Shown piece by piece: positions 20,055 through 25,933 of a DNA stretch of 64,000 nt. This DNA is from Orenia metallireducens (GTDB lineage: Bacteria > Bacillota > Halanaerobiia > Halobacteroidales > Halobacteroidaceae), in the NCBI RefSeq assembly GCF_001693735.1, contig NZ_LWDV01000010.1, positions 678,552-742,551 of the forward strand, read 5' to 3'. The notes beneath the pieces are model-generated. The model searched no databases. It had not been told where the DNA came from and worked only from the letters and a program-made list of their open reading frames with translations. The translations under genes were made by a program, and so were the position numbers. Position 1 is the stretch's first letter; every line of letters starts with the position of its first letter.

Positions 20055-20513
20055 CTAGATAAATGGACTGCTAACCCAATCGATAAATAATAATGTAGGA
20101 AGAACCTCTTCATCATCTAGATCATAAGAAAAATCAAAGGAATTATGTAACTTGATCTCAATCACCTTATCTTCATTATATAAAAAATTAATCTCTTCTT
20201 CTTTTTTAAAGACCCGAAAATCATCTTTATTTATCTCCAAGGCTAACTCCTGATCATTTTCAGCACCTGGAACATAAAGTTTATACTCTACCATCACCAA
20301 CATCAATTTATCCTCTAAATTTACTGCTCGTAAAAAAGGTATAGGTTTAGAAATCCCATGAGGATAATCAGCATTACGGATTTGGGGAACAACACAATCT
20401 AATAAGACTCCATATCCTTTATCAGAAATTAAATTATTAAATAGATTAGTAACTTCTTCATAATCAATCTCTTTACCATAATTGTTATCTTTACTGGTAT
20501 AAAACTTACTCAT
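20055..20513 (-). CDS. Conserved-looking hypothetical protein
   Basis: A 152-residue soluble protein, acidic, with no signal peptide or membrane helix. It alternates strands and helices, with 'MLVMVEYKLYVPGAENDQEL' in the middle and a C-terminal 'LPTLLFIDWVSSPFI'. No family was recognised. AGGAGG precedes the start codon. It lies between the ECF S-component gene and nadE with gaps on both sides, so it is probably monocistronic. Confidence 0.65.
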   Translation of the reverse strand: MSKFYTSKDNNYGKEIDYEEVTNLFNNLISDKGYGVLLDCVVPQIRNADYPHGISKPIPFLRAVNLEDKLMLVMVEYKLYVPGAENDQELALEINKDDFRVFKKEEEINFLYNEDKVIEIKLHNSFDFSYDLDDEEVLPTLLFIDWVSSPFI

Positions 20514-20645: not shown

Positions 20646-21164
20646 CTAAGCTGCTAAACGGGATCTTTGCAATCCCTTAGCAATAGCCACAGTAATTAGT
20701 ACAGCAATTATAACTTCTGGAATTCCATGACTAACAGCAATAGTAACAGCCGTTTCCCAGTTAGGTAAGTAACCTCTAATTACTCCCAAGGATAACACAC
20801 CAACGGTATTGGTTATAGTACCTACTATAGCCGCTATACCTGTTGCCATTAAATTATTTTTAATAGCCATATATGCATATGCAGCAAATATACCAATCAA
20901 GACCCTTGGGAGAATAGCTATTATTGGATCTGAAAATAAGGCAGCACCACCACGCAAAAAACTGAACAAGCCAAATATCAAACCAACAGCACCTCCAACT
21001 AAAGGTCCCTCTATAATCGCCCCAATAATCACTGGGATATGCATTATAGTTGCTGAACCTGCTGGAGTAGGAACTGGGATAAATCCTAGTGGTGTTGAGC
21101 CTAGTAATAATGATATCGCTCCTAGTATTCCAGTTATCGTTAATTGTCTTACTGTAAATTTCAT
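20646..21164 (-). CDS. ECF transporter S component, probably for pantothenate
   Basis: A 172-residue protein with six hydrophobic segments. It matches the ECF-transporter substrate-binding (S) family: 'TITGILGAISLLLG' at the start, then long loop 'GFIPVPTPAGSATIMHIPVIIGAIIEGP', then 'GLIFGLFSFLRGG'. S components capture a vitamin and pair with a shared energizing module (EcfT/EcfA), which is not in this window. The gene follows panB-panC-panD, so a pantothenate or precursor substrate (PanT-like) is the best guess; this rests on context only. A terminator separates it from panD, so it has its own promoter. Confidence 0.85.
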   Translation of the reverse strand: MKFTVRQLTITGILGAISLLLGSTPLGFIPVPTPAGSATIMHIPVIIGAIIEGPLVGGAVGLIFGLFSFLRGGAALFSDPIIAILPRVLIGIFAAYAYMAIKNNLMATGIAAIVGTITNTVGVLSLGVIRGYLPNWETAVTIAVSHGIPEVIIAVLITVAIAKGLQRSRLAA

Positions 21165-21291
21165 TAATACTCCTCCTTATTTTTTGATAATTAATATATG
21201 ATAATTTCATTTATTATAAATTGATATTTATCGTATAATGGGTATAAAGAGACACTTTTCACTTTTAAAAAACAAACAAAATTATTAAAAC
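21165..21291. other. Intergenic leader of the ECF S-component gene
   Basis: AT-rich, with a ribosome site AGGAGG before the start at 21164. No riboswitch-like structure was recognised. Confidence 0.4.
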
Positions 21292-21324
21292 ATTTTTCGG
21301 GAAAGCTTATCAGCTTTTTTCCCG
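21292..21324 (-). terminator. Terminator of the panBCD operon
   Basis: On the minus strand CGGGAAAAAAGCT pairs with AGCTTTCCCG and is followed by AAAAATGTTTT. It lies about 260 bases past the panD stop, so the transcript has a long 3' end. Confidence 0.65.
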
Positions 21325-21325
21325 A

Positions 21326-21354
21326 GTTACTTTTAGCATTACCATAAAAGTAAC
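21326..21354. repeat. Palindrome GTTACTTTT...AAAAGTAAC
   Basis: Nine-base perfect arms around an 11-base loop, directly beside the pan terminator. Palindromes of this kind (GGTTACTTTT / AAAAGTAACC) recur in intergenic DNA of many bacteria; only one copy is visible here. The remainder of 21355-21583 shows no other structure. Confidence 0.5.
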
Positions 21355-21583
21355 CAAAAGGTCTAGAAGAAAATTAAACTCTCTCAGCAATCAACACCTA
21401 TTGAAATTGAGAAATATGGTACTTCTAATTCAAAGATCATACCGTAACTATTACTTCTTGAAAATGTTTGCTTCGTTCAAACATTAATTTTCTTCAATTT
21501 AAAATCTTTAAAATCTTTTAATTATCAATTCTCAACTCCACCTTCTCAATTCTAAAAAATATTGCAATATCTTTCTTTCATAT

Positions 21584-21943
21584 TTAAATATCACAATCAC
21601 AAATCTGATTATCTTCATTGACTAACACAACTTTAGGACTTAATTCTTTAGATTCACTTTCATTCATCAGAGCATAGGAGATTATAATTACAGTATCACC
21701 TGTTTGAGCCTTTCTAGCTGCTGCTCCATTTAAACAGATAACCCCTGAGCCCTTTTCACCGGGAATAACATAAGTTTCTAATCGTTCACCATTATTATTA
21801 TTTACAACCTGCACCCTCTCATTAGGGAGTATATCAGCAGCCTCCATTAACTCTTGATCTATAGTGATACTACCAATATAATTCAAATTAGCATCAGTCA
21901 CCTTCGCCCGATGAATTTTGGATTTATACATCATCCTTATCAT
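21584..21943 (-). CDS. panD: Aspartate 1-decarboxylase precursor
   Basis: Makes beta-alanine for pantothenate synthesis. The proenzyme cleaves itself between Gly24 and Ser25 (YIGSITID) to create the pyruvoyl cofactor; both residues are present. The '[23 protein letters not shown]' segment is also typical. At 119 residues the protein is slightly shorter than usual and ends in an odd CDCDI. It starts two bases after the panC stop, and its GGAGG overlaps the end of panC, indicating coupled translation. Confidence 0.96.
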
Positions 21944-21945
21944 AC

Positions 21946-22791
21946 CTATACCTCCAGAAGAATATTATCTATAAGTCTAGTTTCACCAATATAGACAGCT
22001 AATGCAATCAATATTTTCCCTGTAACTAAATCGACTTCTTTGAGATTCTTTTCATTAGCAATATGTACATAATCTATCCTAGCCAAAGGTTCATTTTCTA
22101 TATTCTTTATAATTTGAGATTTAATTAAGTTAGCGTCTCTTTTGCCAGCTTCTATCATATTCTTAGCCAAAGTCAAAGATTTAAATAAAATTAAAGCAGC
22201 CTCTCTTTCTTTAGTACTTAAATACTTATTACGAGAGCTCATAGCCAATCCATCTTCTTCTCTTACAATAGGTACAACTACTATCTTTACATCAAAGTTT
22301 AAATCTTCTACCATCTTCTTAATAACCAAGACCTGCTGAGCATCCTTTTGACCAAAATAAGCTCTATCAGGGTTTACAATGTTAAATAACTTAGTTACTA
22401 TAGTACAAACACCTCTAAAATGCCCTGGTCTAGAAGCCCCACAAAGTTTTGTAGTCAAGTCGTCTACCTCAACTCTAGTACAGGCATTTTTTAGATAAAT
22501 CTCTTCAACCTTTGGAGCAAAAATAATATCAATACCTACCCCTTTAGCTAACTTAGCGTCATGCTCTAAATTTCGAGGGTAATCCTCATAATCCTCATCT
22601 GGACCAAATTGAGTTGGGTTGATAAAGATACTGGCTATTACTATATCATTCTCCTCTTTAGCCCTTTCCATCAAAGTTAAATGCCCCTGATGTAAGTAAC
22701 CCATAGTAGGTACAAACCCTATTTTCTTTCCTTCTCTTCTTCTAGCTTTCACATAATCTCTAATATCAGAAATCCTATGATATATCTCCAC
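21946..22791 (-). CDS. panC: Pantothenate synthetase
   Basis: Joins pantoate and beta-alanine with ATP to make pantothenate. The 281-residue protein has the nucleotidyl-transferase HIGH-type motif as HQGH (34-37, in [12 protein letters not shown]) and the '[12 protein letters not shown]' and 'YFGQKDAQQ' family motifs. 'AMSSRNKYL' is the KMSKS-like loop. It lies 12 bases after panB and two bases before panD in an operon. Confidence 0.97.
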
Positions 22792-22803: not shown

Positions 22804-23607
22804 TTAAAAACTCTCTTCTACTTTAGGAAATTCCCCCTGTTTAACATCATTCTTATACTTCGATATTGCTAAACTTATATCAGTATCTAACTCAGCATAT
22901 CTTCTGACAAATTTAGGCCTAAAATTAGAGAAGAGCCCTAACATATCTTGGGTTACGAGAACCTGACCATCACAAGCATTTCCAGCACCTATACCTATAG
23001 TTGGAATAGATATTCTTTCAGTCACTTCTTTAGCTAAATCAGCTGGAATACATTCCAATACAACTGCAAAAACCCCTGCCTTCTCCAAAACCAATACATC
23101 TTCAAGCAATTTCTTTCTAGCCTCAACCTCTCTTGCTTGAACTTTAAATCCTCCAAATTGATTGACAGATTGTGGGGTAAGACCTAAGTGTCCCATCACT
23201 GGAATTCCAGCTTGAACAACAGCCTTTACTTCCTCTGATATTTCACTGCCACCCTCTAATTTAACAGCTCCTACTCCAGTCTCTTTGATAATCCTTCCTG
23301 CATTCTGTACTGTCTTAGAAATATCATCTATCTTATAAGACATAAAAGGCATATCACTAACTACTAGGGACTCTTTTACTCCTCTAGCTACTGCCTTACT
23401 ATGGTAGATAATATCATCTAAAGTTACTGCCAAAGTATCTTCATAACCCAAAACAACCATCCCTAAAGAGTCCCCAACTAAAATCACATCAATTCCAGCT
23501 CGATCTATCAGTTGAGCAGTAGGATAATCATAGGCTGTTAGCATAGTAATCTTCTGACCTAGCTCCTTCCTTTCTTGTAAAGTCTTGACAGTTATCTTTT
23601 CTCTCAC
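22804..23607 (-). CDS. panB: 3-methyl-2-oxobutanoate hydroxymethyltransferase
   Basis: Adds a hydroxymethyl group from methylene-tetrahydrofolate to 2-oxoisovalerate, the first committed step of pantothenate synthesis. The protein has [10 protein letters not shown] near the N-terminus, the metal-site '[11 protein letters not shown]' and catalytic 'VVLECIP'. The start is taken as GTG 23607, with GAGGTG six bases upstream; a longer frame begins at 23652 without support. This gives 267 residues, typical for PanB. It is first in panB-panC-panD and is preceded by a structured leader. Confidence 0.95.
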
Positions 23608-23654
23608 TTCTATCACCTCACTTCTACTGATAATTAAGCTCTGGTAAATCAAAT

Positions 23655-23694
23655 AGAAAAAGCCCTCTCATCCTTTAAGGACAAGAAGGCTTTT
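23655..23694 (-). terminator. Attenuator-type terminator in the panB leader
   Basis: AAAAGCC...GTCCTT pairs with AAGGA...GGGCTTTTT on the minus strand. It sits about 50 bases before the panB start and downstream of a promoter, so it can only act by premature termination. Confidence 0.75.
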
Positions 23695-23818
23695 ATAATC
23701 ATAACCAAGCATAACTATATCATTAGACATAGTTATCCTAATATTTCAGATTCATACCGTCTCGGTCCTTGAGGATCCAAGCGAAAATATTAAATTGTAT
23801 ATAAAAATAGAAAAATCT
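23695..23818 (-). promoter_or_regulatory. Structured 5' leader of panBCD, possible pan-type RNA
   Basis: Read on the minus strand, a closing stem AATATTTTC / GAAATATT (about 23739-23791) encloses the hairpin CTTGG-A-TCC-TCAA-GGA-CCGAG, in which one A is bulged. A second hairpin ATAACTAT / ATAGTTAT follows, then the terminator. A hairpin with bulged adenosines ahead of pantothenate genes is the description of the published 'pan' RNA motif. The match is from memory and not verified; a leader with a terminator is what the sequence itself shows. Confidence 0.5.
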
Positions 23819-23824
23819 ACTACT

Positions 23825-23853
23825 ATTATACTAAGTAAAACTTTTAATTGCAA
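23825..23853 (-). promoter_or_regulatory. Sigma-70 promoter of panBCD
   Basis: TTGCAA (23848-23853) and TATAAT (23825-23830) are 17 bases apart. Transcription would start near 23818, giving a leader of about 210 bases. Confidence 0.8.
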
Positions 23854-23864
23854 CCCTAAGTAAA

Positions 23865-25541
23865 TTAAAATAACCCTGTAATCTTACCATTCTCATCAAT
23901 ATCTATATTCTCAGCAGCAGGTCGCTTAGGTAATCCTGGCATCGTCATCACATTTCCAGTTAATGCTACCAAAAATCCTGCACCTGCAGATACATTAATC
24001 TCTCTTACTGTTACTTCAAACCCCATCGGTCTTCCTTTCAAAGCAGGATTATCTGATAATGAAACAGGAGTCTTAGCCATACAGATTGGCATCTTATCAA
24101 AACCATCCTTAACTAGCTGCTTAATATCCTTCTTAGCTTGAGCTGTAAAGTTAACCTTAGCTGCTCCATATATTTCAGTAGCAATCTTAATTATCTTATC
24201 TTCAATAGAATCTTCAACATCATATAATACTTTGAAATCACTTGGCTTTTCAATTAGCTCCAATACCTTCTCAGCCAACTCGATTCCACCTTCTCCACCT
24301 TTAGCCCAAACTTGAGATAAGGCTACTTCTACTCCTAACTCTTCACAACGCTCTTTAATTAAATTCAATTCCGCCTCTGTATCTGTTGGAAATTCATTAA
24401 TAGCAACAACTAAAGGCACTCCAAACTTCTGAACATTCTCAATATGCTTCTCTAAATTCTCTAAACCAGCTGCCAATGCATTTAAATTCTCCTCATTTAG
24501 TTCATCTTTGCTTACACCACCATGAAGCTTTAGAGCGCGAGCAGTAGCTACTACTACAACTGCATCAGGGGCTAACCCAGCAAAACGACATTTGATATTA
24601 AAGAACTTCTCCGCTCCTAAATCTGCCCCAAATCCAGCCTCTGTAACTACATAATCAGCAGTTTTAAGGGCTAATTTAGTAGCCATAACACTATTACAAC
24701 CATGAGCAATATTAGCAAAAGGACCACCATGGATAAAGGCAGGAGTATTCTCTAAAGTCTGTACTAAATTAGGCTTGATTGCATCTTTTAATAATGCTGC
24801 CATTGCACCAGCAACCTTTAGATCTTTAGCTGTAATTGCTTCTCCTTCATAGTTATAAGCTACAACCATCTTACCTAGTCTTTCTTTTAAGTCCAATATC
24901 CCCTCTGCTAGACATAAAATCGCCATTACTTCAGAAGCAACGGTAATCATATATCCATCTTGACGAGGCTGACCATTTGCCGTTCCACCAAGACCTACTA
25001 CTATCTCTCTTAAAGCACGGTCATTCATATCTACTACACGTTTAAAATTAATCTTAGTTTGATCTAAATTCAACTCATTTCCTTGCTTAATATGATTATC
25101 AATAGCTGCTGATAATAAATTATGAGCTATACCAATAGCATGAATATCACCTGTAAAATGTAAGTTAATATCCTCCATCGGTACAACTTGTGAATAACCT
25201 CCACCAGCTGCTCCTCCTTTAATTCCCATACATGGTCCTAAAGAAGGTTCACGTAATGCTATTGCAGTATTCTTCCCTATCTTATTTAAAGCTTGACCTA
25301 AACCAACAGTAGTAGTTGATTTTCCTTCTCCTGCTGGAGTAGGATTAATAGCTGTAGTTAAGATTAACTTAGCTGTCTTTTCTTTTTCCATCAACCTCCG
25401 ATAAGTCTCTAATTTGATCTTTGCTTTATAATCACCATATAATTCAATATCATCTTCAGTCAATCCTAACTTGGCAGCTATCTCTTTAATATGTAACATC
25501 TTCGCCTCTTGGGCAATCTCAATATCTGACTTATAACTCAC
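23865..25541 (-). CDS. fhs: Formate-tetrahydrofolate ligase
   Basis: Makes 10-formyl-tetrahydrofolate from formate, ATP and THF, feeding purine synthesis and one-carbon metabolism. The 558-residue protein has the nucleotide-binding loop TPAGEGKST (68-76) and the family motifs '[23 protein letters not shown]' region and 'FTGDIHAIG'. Length is normal. It is preceded by a ZTP riboswitch, the usual control for this gene, and the panB promoter begins just past its stop. No separate terminator was seen. Confidence 0.98.
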
Positions 25542-25802: not shown

Positions 25803-25922
25803 AAAAAAAACCGCCTGAACAAATAGCTTTTTATACTATCTGCCCAGGCGGTCGGCTAATTTATTATATAAGTCATAATCCCCTATGGTTAACTCCATAA
25901 TTATCCGCCAGTATTATGACTA
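25803..25922 (-). promoter_or_regulatory. ZTP (pfl) riboswitch controlling fhs
   Basis: On the minus strand the aptamer has the conserved ACTGGCGGA start, a P1 pairing of GTCATAAT with ATTATGAC, the TGGAGTTAACCATAGGGGA region, and the diagnostic 3' part GCCGACCGCCTGGGCA. The CCGCCTGGGCA strand also pairs with TGTTCAGGCGG to form a terminator followed by eight T. Ligand binding (ZTP/ZMP, signals of folate shortage) should therefore block termination and switch fhs on. The class is established; recognition is by motif only. Confidence 0.9.
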
Positions 25923-25933
25923 CTTTTGCTTTG

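Follow-up and report, generated by a model that had tools for sequence, protein, structure and literature searches.

In PyrR-dependent attenuation of pyr operons, a small hairpin with a bulged purine serves as an anti-antiterminator, and the leader also holds an overlapping antiterminator and a terminator. The TPP and FMN riboswitches represent another type of leader, in which one kind of RNA governs genes for both synthesis and import through ECF transporters, with outputs that act either on a terminator or on a Shine-Dalgarno sequence. The pan RNA motif (Rfam RF01749) was described in 2010 (Weinberg et al., PMC2864571). As far as the text of that article is accessible, two tandem hairpins are stated for most, not all, pan members, and the main text names only panB, panC and the gene for aspartate decarboxylase as pan-linked genes. 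We found no report of a ligand, a regulator protein or a mechanism for pan RNAs in the searchable literature.

Here we analyzed by computation the leader of the panBCD operon of Orenia metallireducens in a stretch of 64,000 nucleotides, hereafter the window, to which all coordinates refer. This leader has in common with the described pan RNAs a hairpin with two bulged adenines upstream of panB, panC and panD. It differs from them in having one hairpin, in scoring 0.4 bits under the Rfam cut-off, in the antiterminator that we propose, and in a regulon that includes importers. The leader is proposed to work like PyrR-dependent attenuation, but it is not a member of that class: the PyrR site model (RF00515) gave 26.2 bits (E 0.088) against a cut-off of 54, and both the genes and the sequence are different. 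Like the TPP and FMN riboswitches, pan RNAs serve synthesis together with ECF import and appear to use terminator or Shine-Dalgarno outputs, whereas the putative pan sensor is far smaller. While the RNA class is thus known, we did not find the one-hairpin lineage, the mapped switch or the importer regulon in the available literature; the supplements of Weinberg et al. and most subscription journals lay outside this search, and parts may have been noted previously.

The leader ahead of panBCD

All leader elements before panB sit on the minus strand. An earlier note on this DNA, made from the letters alone, had given the range 23608-23853, which is correct, but had left the strand unstated. The promoter that it described, TTGCAA-N17-TATAAT, is present at 23853-23825 (−) and matches 10 of the 12 consensus positions, although this score alone is not beyond chance (15 such sites versus 14.6 expected in this AT-rich region). 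The transcript is expected to start near 23818 (−). Throughout the order (13 genomes), a −10-like box is found 16-55 nt 5′ of the pan hairpin.

The pan hairpin itself, UCGCUUGG-A-UCC-UCAA-GGA-CCGAG-A-CGG, occupies 23784-23757 (−). It is built from 3 bp, 5 bp, a bulged A, 3 bp and a loop, with a second bulged A on the 3′ side, beneath which UCG/CGG pairs close the structure. Both bulged residues, A23776 on the 5′ side and A23760 on the 3′ side, are A throughout the order (13 of 13 genomes) and in 100 of 110 other pan RNAs. The hairpin proposed in the earlier note (CTTGG-A-TCC-TCAA-GGA-CCGAG) is real and conserved in relatives, but it is longer than described there; the note had also overlooked the second bulged A, the absence of the first hairpin that is usual in pan RNAs, and the ability of the foot to pair with the terminator. 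Downstream follow a middle conserved element, UUAGGAUAACUAUGUCUA (23741-23724, −), a second hairpin of 11 bp that overlaps this element (23736-23711, −), and an intrinsic terminator with a stem of 17 bp and a U-rich tail (23694-23658, −), the stem of which covaries within the order. The second hairpin and the terminator ahead of panB had both been foreseen from the letters, and the description of the leader as structured was borne out as well: its fold has a predicted energy of −62.7 kcal/mol, versus −42.3 kcal/mol for shuffled sequences (z −5.6; 0 of 200 shuffles as good).

At the Rfam gathering thresholds the leader gave no match. The RF01749 model nonetheless aligned to 23819-23753 (−) with 35.8 bits (E 7.6e-5 on 271 nt, in a search run with an E-value setting), 0.4 bits short of the gathering score of 36.2, which is a detection threshold rather than a biological trait. 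The shortfall arises because one pan hairpin is present where two are usual: the leader aligns poorly to the half of the model that describes the first hairpin, and throughout the order (13 genomes) the promoter or unrelated sequence stands in the place of that hairpin. In a search of the whole genome, the leader (E 2.3e-4) was the sole match at E-values up to 0.001, and no second pan RNA was found in the genome with either the Rfam model or a single-hairpin pattern. Three leaders of the same family (in G003, G005 and G006; G, L and f denote our genomes, loci and families) pass the cut-off, with 36.4, 36.4 and 37.4 bits. To count hairpins, we scanned 119 pan loci for the arrangement 3 bp - 5 bp - A - 3 bp. 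About half of the loci contained at least two such hairpins, but each genome of the order (13 of 13) had exactly one, always with both bulged A's. Compatible changes in the hairpin include U-G, C-G and U-A at its base and U-G, C-G and G-U in mid-stem, and compensatory pair types occur at nearly every pair across the 110 other pan RNAs. With a hairpin bearing both bulged A's, panBCD directly downstream and the tandem hairpin missing, the leader was classed as a pan RNA variant with one hairpin. This assignment, which is based on sequence comparison, supports the pan-motif reading of the earlier note. The matches of PyrR, mir-1302, KRAS and other Rfam models to the leader were all below threshold and were taken as chance.

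The pan model matched 32 of 41 close genomes and, in a wider sample of the phylum, 84 of 199. When GTDB was scanned with an exact pattern, pan RNAs before pan genes were also detected in Chloroflexota, delta-proteobacterial groups, Nitrospinota and others. Where no gene of the pan type follows, as for some of the 120 pattern matches (for example in Actinomycetota), the match is probably due to chance.

The middle element, UUAGGnUAnCUAUGnCUA, lies between the pan hairpin and the terminator and is conserved as strongly as the pan hairpin within the order. Exact matches to it are almost confined to pan leaders. We rejected the idea of a mobile or general signal, as near-matches elsewhere were not clearly commoner than those to a reversed control pattern. 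Candidate roles for the element are those of a pause, a spacer or a binding site.

Pairing of the hairpin foot and a second type of output

The foot of the pan hairpin, GGACCGAGACGGUA (23768-23755, −), can pair with the terminator 5′ arm, AGCCUUCUUGUCCU (23691-23678, −), and we propose that these two segments are the 5′ and 3′ strands of an antiterminator. The duplex of GGACCGAGACGGU with GCCUUCUUGUCC in the window has a predicted energy of −13.5 kcal/mol (p 0.004 versus shuffled feet). Foot and arm vary together among the relatives: ACGGUUUAAGCA occurs with UGCUUAACCGU in G011, ACGGAAAGAAG with CUUCUUGUCCGU in G008, and ACGGUUAGAG with CUCUUUGACCGU in G010. Across the 13 genomes of the order the duplex was stronger within leaders than between leaders (−14.0 versus −11.7 kcal/mol), with a permutation p of 2e-4 that is not blind, as the 13 leaders had been inspected by eye before the test was written. 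The rules for foot and terminator were fixed after the leaders of the order had been studied and were then applied to two larger sets. Within-leader pairing was also stronger in 75 Bacillota leaders (z −5.0; 0 of 20,000 permutations as good), where most terminators, like all others outside the order, were called automatically. The same held for 57 leaders from the pattern scan, most of them from outside Bacillota (Chloroflexota, delta-proteobacterial groups and Nitrospinota; z −3.1; 26 of 20,000 permutations), a set for which the fetching pattern fixes part of the foot. All these p values ignore the relatedness of the sequences and are thus optimistic. Compensation is directly visible in loci L196 and L197, where CAG/CUG replaces CGG/CCG, and the commonest form outside the order is a foot CGGAAGG with a terminator CCUUCCG or CCUUUCG. 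Such pairing may explain the conserved purine tail behind the hairpin in the Rfam consensus.

Folding of the leader points in the same direction. When the transcript is truncated behind the terminator 5′ arm, the antiterminator is expected to have 11.0 pairs and the pan hairpin 0.2, and forbidding the terminator arm in the fold costs about 2.6 kcal/mol (from −30.8 to −28.2), so that a modest binding energy of a ligand or protein could flip the state. By computation, the predicted antiterminator and the terminator are mutually exclusive, as in an attenuator. Of the 13 members of the order, at least 4 (clearly G001, G003, G004 and G012) give no individual pairing signal, and the G003 leader favours the pan hairpin over the antiterminator when folded.

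Another output is suggested by leaders of importer genes. In more than 12 relatives a pan RNA immediately precedes an orthologue of the ECF S gene of the window (46-57% identity), which agrees with the view in the earlier note that the ECF S component is the import side of the same regulon. This arrangement is found in the families f3 (Halanaerobium-like, a label given to relatives from gene content and kinship) and f9 and in the genomes G040 and G082, and in the ECF S leaders of these we found no terminator; there the foot, for example GGGAUGGGAGG or GGGAUGAAAGGAGG, is a Shine-Dalgarno sequence. The use of one strand as either antiterminator or ribosome site would fit a single rule, namely that a stabilised hairpin base turns the gene off.

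Proposed switch and alternative explanations

Taking the leader, its conservation, its mutually exclusive and covarying pairings and its gene contexts together, we think it probable that the single-hairpin pan RNA controls panBCD by conditional transcription termination, the hairpin acting as an anti-antiterminator. An effector signalling enough pantothenate or CoA would stabilise the pan hairpin, which would then hold its 3′ strand GGACCGAGACGGU, allow the terminator to form and switch panBCD off. Without the effector, GGACCGAGACGGU would pair with the terminator 5′ arm GCCUUCUUGUCC, so that no terminator would form and transcription would read through. In leaders that lack a terminator, such as those of importer genes in Halanaerobium-like relatives, the foot would be masked as a Shine-Dalgarno sequence by the same stabilisation of the hairpin. 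We infer the effector, the direction of control and the operation of the switch in cells; the direction follows from the logic of biosynthesis and import. Since import and synthesis genes would stand under one signal, this signal is more likely to be pantothenate or something made from it, such as CoA, than a biosynthetic intermediate. The putative switch is concrete and can be tested by mutation, its one-hairpin form is suited to binding studies, and the pan RNAs before importers make the trigger testable.

The same switch could be operated by different sensors. We see about an even chance that an unnamed RNA-binding protein clamps the pan hairpin at high pantothenate or CoA in a PyrR-like manner, given that a hairpin of 28 nt and two bulged A's leaves very little room for a metabolite pocket and that the architecture equals PyrR attenuation in its logic. 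Protein binding was also suggested for the tandem form in the accessible text of Weinberg et al. 2010 (PMC2864571), although the presence of one hairpin throughout the order argues that dimeric binding is not obligatory there. Three candidates for such a protein, however, are each missing from some pan-bearing genomes, which makes them unlikely as self-regulators. The DUF2520 protein is lacking in the Halanaerobium-like family f3 and in G000-G003 and G005, and PanB is lacking in G019; in f5 and G016 the ECF S protein is either absent or only remotely similar. CoaX, encoded in 37 of 39 relatives, is a possible sensor. A second possibility, that the hairpin itself forms the aptamer of a riboswitch sensing pantothenate or a metabolite of the CoA pathway, would agree with the broad spread of the RNA across phyla with no shared accessory gene found, with the strict conservation of both bulged A's and with a regulon of pantothenate synthesis and import; its very small and simple structure and the lack of a reported ligand in the literature found leave this a tentative option to which we give the smaller share of belief. 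Overall we regard a protein as about twice as likely an effector as a small molecule. The boldest form of the aptamer idea, in which the lone 28-nt hairpin would be a complete sensor for a metabolite of the pantothenate/CoA pathway and its 3′ strand would be aptamer, antiterminator and, in relatives, Shine-Dalgarno sequence at once, is rather doubtful, but if true this RNA would rank among the smallest riboswitches in nature and be the vitamin B5 switch that has been missing.

Two further explanations dispense with this type of switch. The terminator could be a constitutive attenuation or processing signal whose complementarity to the foot stems from a copied part of the pan hairpin, and its 5′ arm does resemble the pan 5′ arm in several genomes. 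A mere copy accords poorly with the within-leader specificity and the compensatory differences in two data sets, and with the complementarity below and beyond the hairpin in most genomes of the order, which is why we hold this origin without switching to be improbable. Attenuation through a leader peptide, with the CUAUGYCUA element as the start of a short ORF that overlaps the terminator, has in its favour that most leaders of the order carry an AUG in the middle element and that family f5 combines a strong Shine-Dalgarno sequence with a short ORF overlapping a terminator-like hairpin. Yet the ORFs range from 3 to about 20 or more codons with no common peptide discernible by eye, the Shine-Dalgarno signals are weak, and the AUG is not invariant (G001, G002 and G010), so that we give this explanation hardly any credence.

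The operon, its importers and the wider regulon

The identity of the genes downstream of the leader as panBCD, as read from the open reading frames, was borne out by Pfam and NCBIfam. The operon comprises panB (ketopantoate hydroxymethyltransferase, GTG start; 22804-23616, −; TIGR00222, PF02548), panC (pantoate-beta-alanine ligase; 21946-22791, −; TIGR00018) and panD (aspartate decarboxylase; 21584-21943, −; TIGR00223). Further along lies the gene for the PanT-like ECF transporter S component (20646-21164, −; PF12822), whose orthologues are those found directly behind pan RNAs. Among solved structures, its best matches are 4RFS_S (E 1.4e-7) and 6ZG3_C (E 2e-4), both of which we take to be ECF-PanT. 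Judged from this sequence relationship and from its linkage to pantothenate genes, the S component is a probable pantothenate importer. We considered whether the 419-nt spacer between panD and the importer gene (21165-21583, −) might be a second regulatory leader and rejected this idea: the spacer is one copy of a dispersed repeat, for which the genome has 58 matches, and its folding departs only slightly from expectation (z −2.4). The importer gene lies close behind panD in G002, G003, G005 and G007. The adjoining ORF of 152 aa (20055-20513, −) had no match in Pfam or NCBIfam.

Beyond this operon, pan RNAs precede panB, panC, panD and the adjoining gene for a DUF2520 Rossmann protein, and they are also found before transporter genes of other kinds. 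PanF sodium/pantothenate symporter genes follow them at L104 and L170 (TIGR02119, above cut-off), PanS-like genes at L260 (NF047939, below cut-off) and L212 (by resemblance), and, in Chloroflexota, ECF ATPase genes at L102 (NCBIfam) and at L081, L112 and L140 (by resemblance). OPT-family transporter genes occur behind pan RNAs at L226 (NCBIfam, below cut-off) and L090 (by resemblance); to our knowledge, this family is not usually linked to pantothenate. Genes for S components of the BioY family follow pan RNAs at L269 and L278 (Pfam) and at L110 (by resemblance), and CoaX, a pantothenate kinase, is encoded next at L269. These BioY-type proteins are like PanU, a protein resembling biotin S proteins that imports pantothenate in Bacillus subtilis (PMC11487621). 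The regulon thus takes in several unrelated families of vitamin B5 importers, and it gives uncharacterised ECF S proteins a likely substrate.

At L231 and L274 (also at L191) a pan RNA stands before an amidohydrolase gene that is followed by BirA; the amidohydrolase might release pantothenate or beta-alanine from conjugates. In five leaders of family f5 (L002, L004, L006, L007 and L009), the foot is the strong Shine-Dalgarno sequence of a short upstream ORF. This ORF overlaps a terminator-like hairpin (GAUGCC...GGCAUC in L002, L006 and L007) ahead of the DUF2520 gene, and translation-coupled attenuation is possible there. DUF2520 searches gave no match in G000, G001 and G002; at L033, in G001 of the same genus, an apparent remnant of a DUF2520-type gene lies between the pan RNA and panB.

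Directly upstream of the pan leader of the window lies fhs, encoding formate-tetrahydrofolate ligase (23865-25541), and the order fhs-pan recurs in several relatives. PanB uses a folate cofactor, and the neighbourhood may therefore be functional. Ahead of fhs we observed a ZMP/ZTP riboswitch (RF01750, 64.1 bits; 25835-25925, −).
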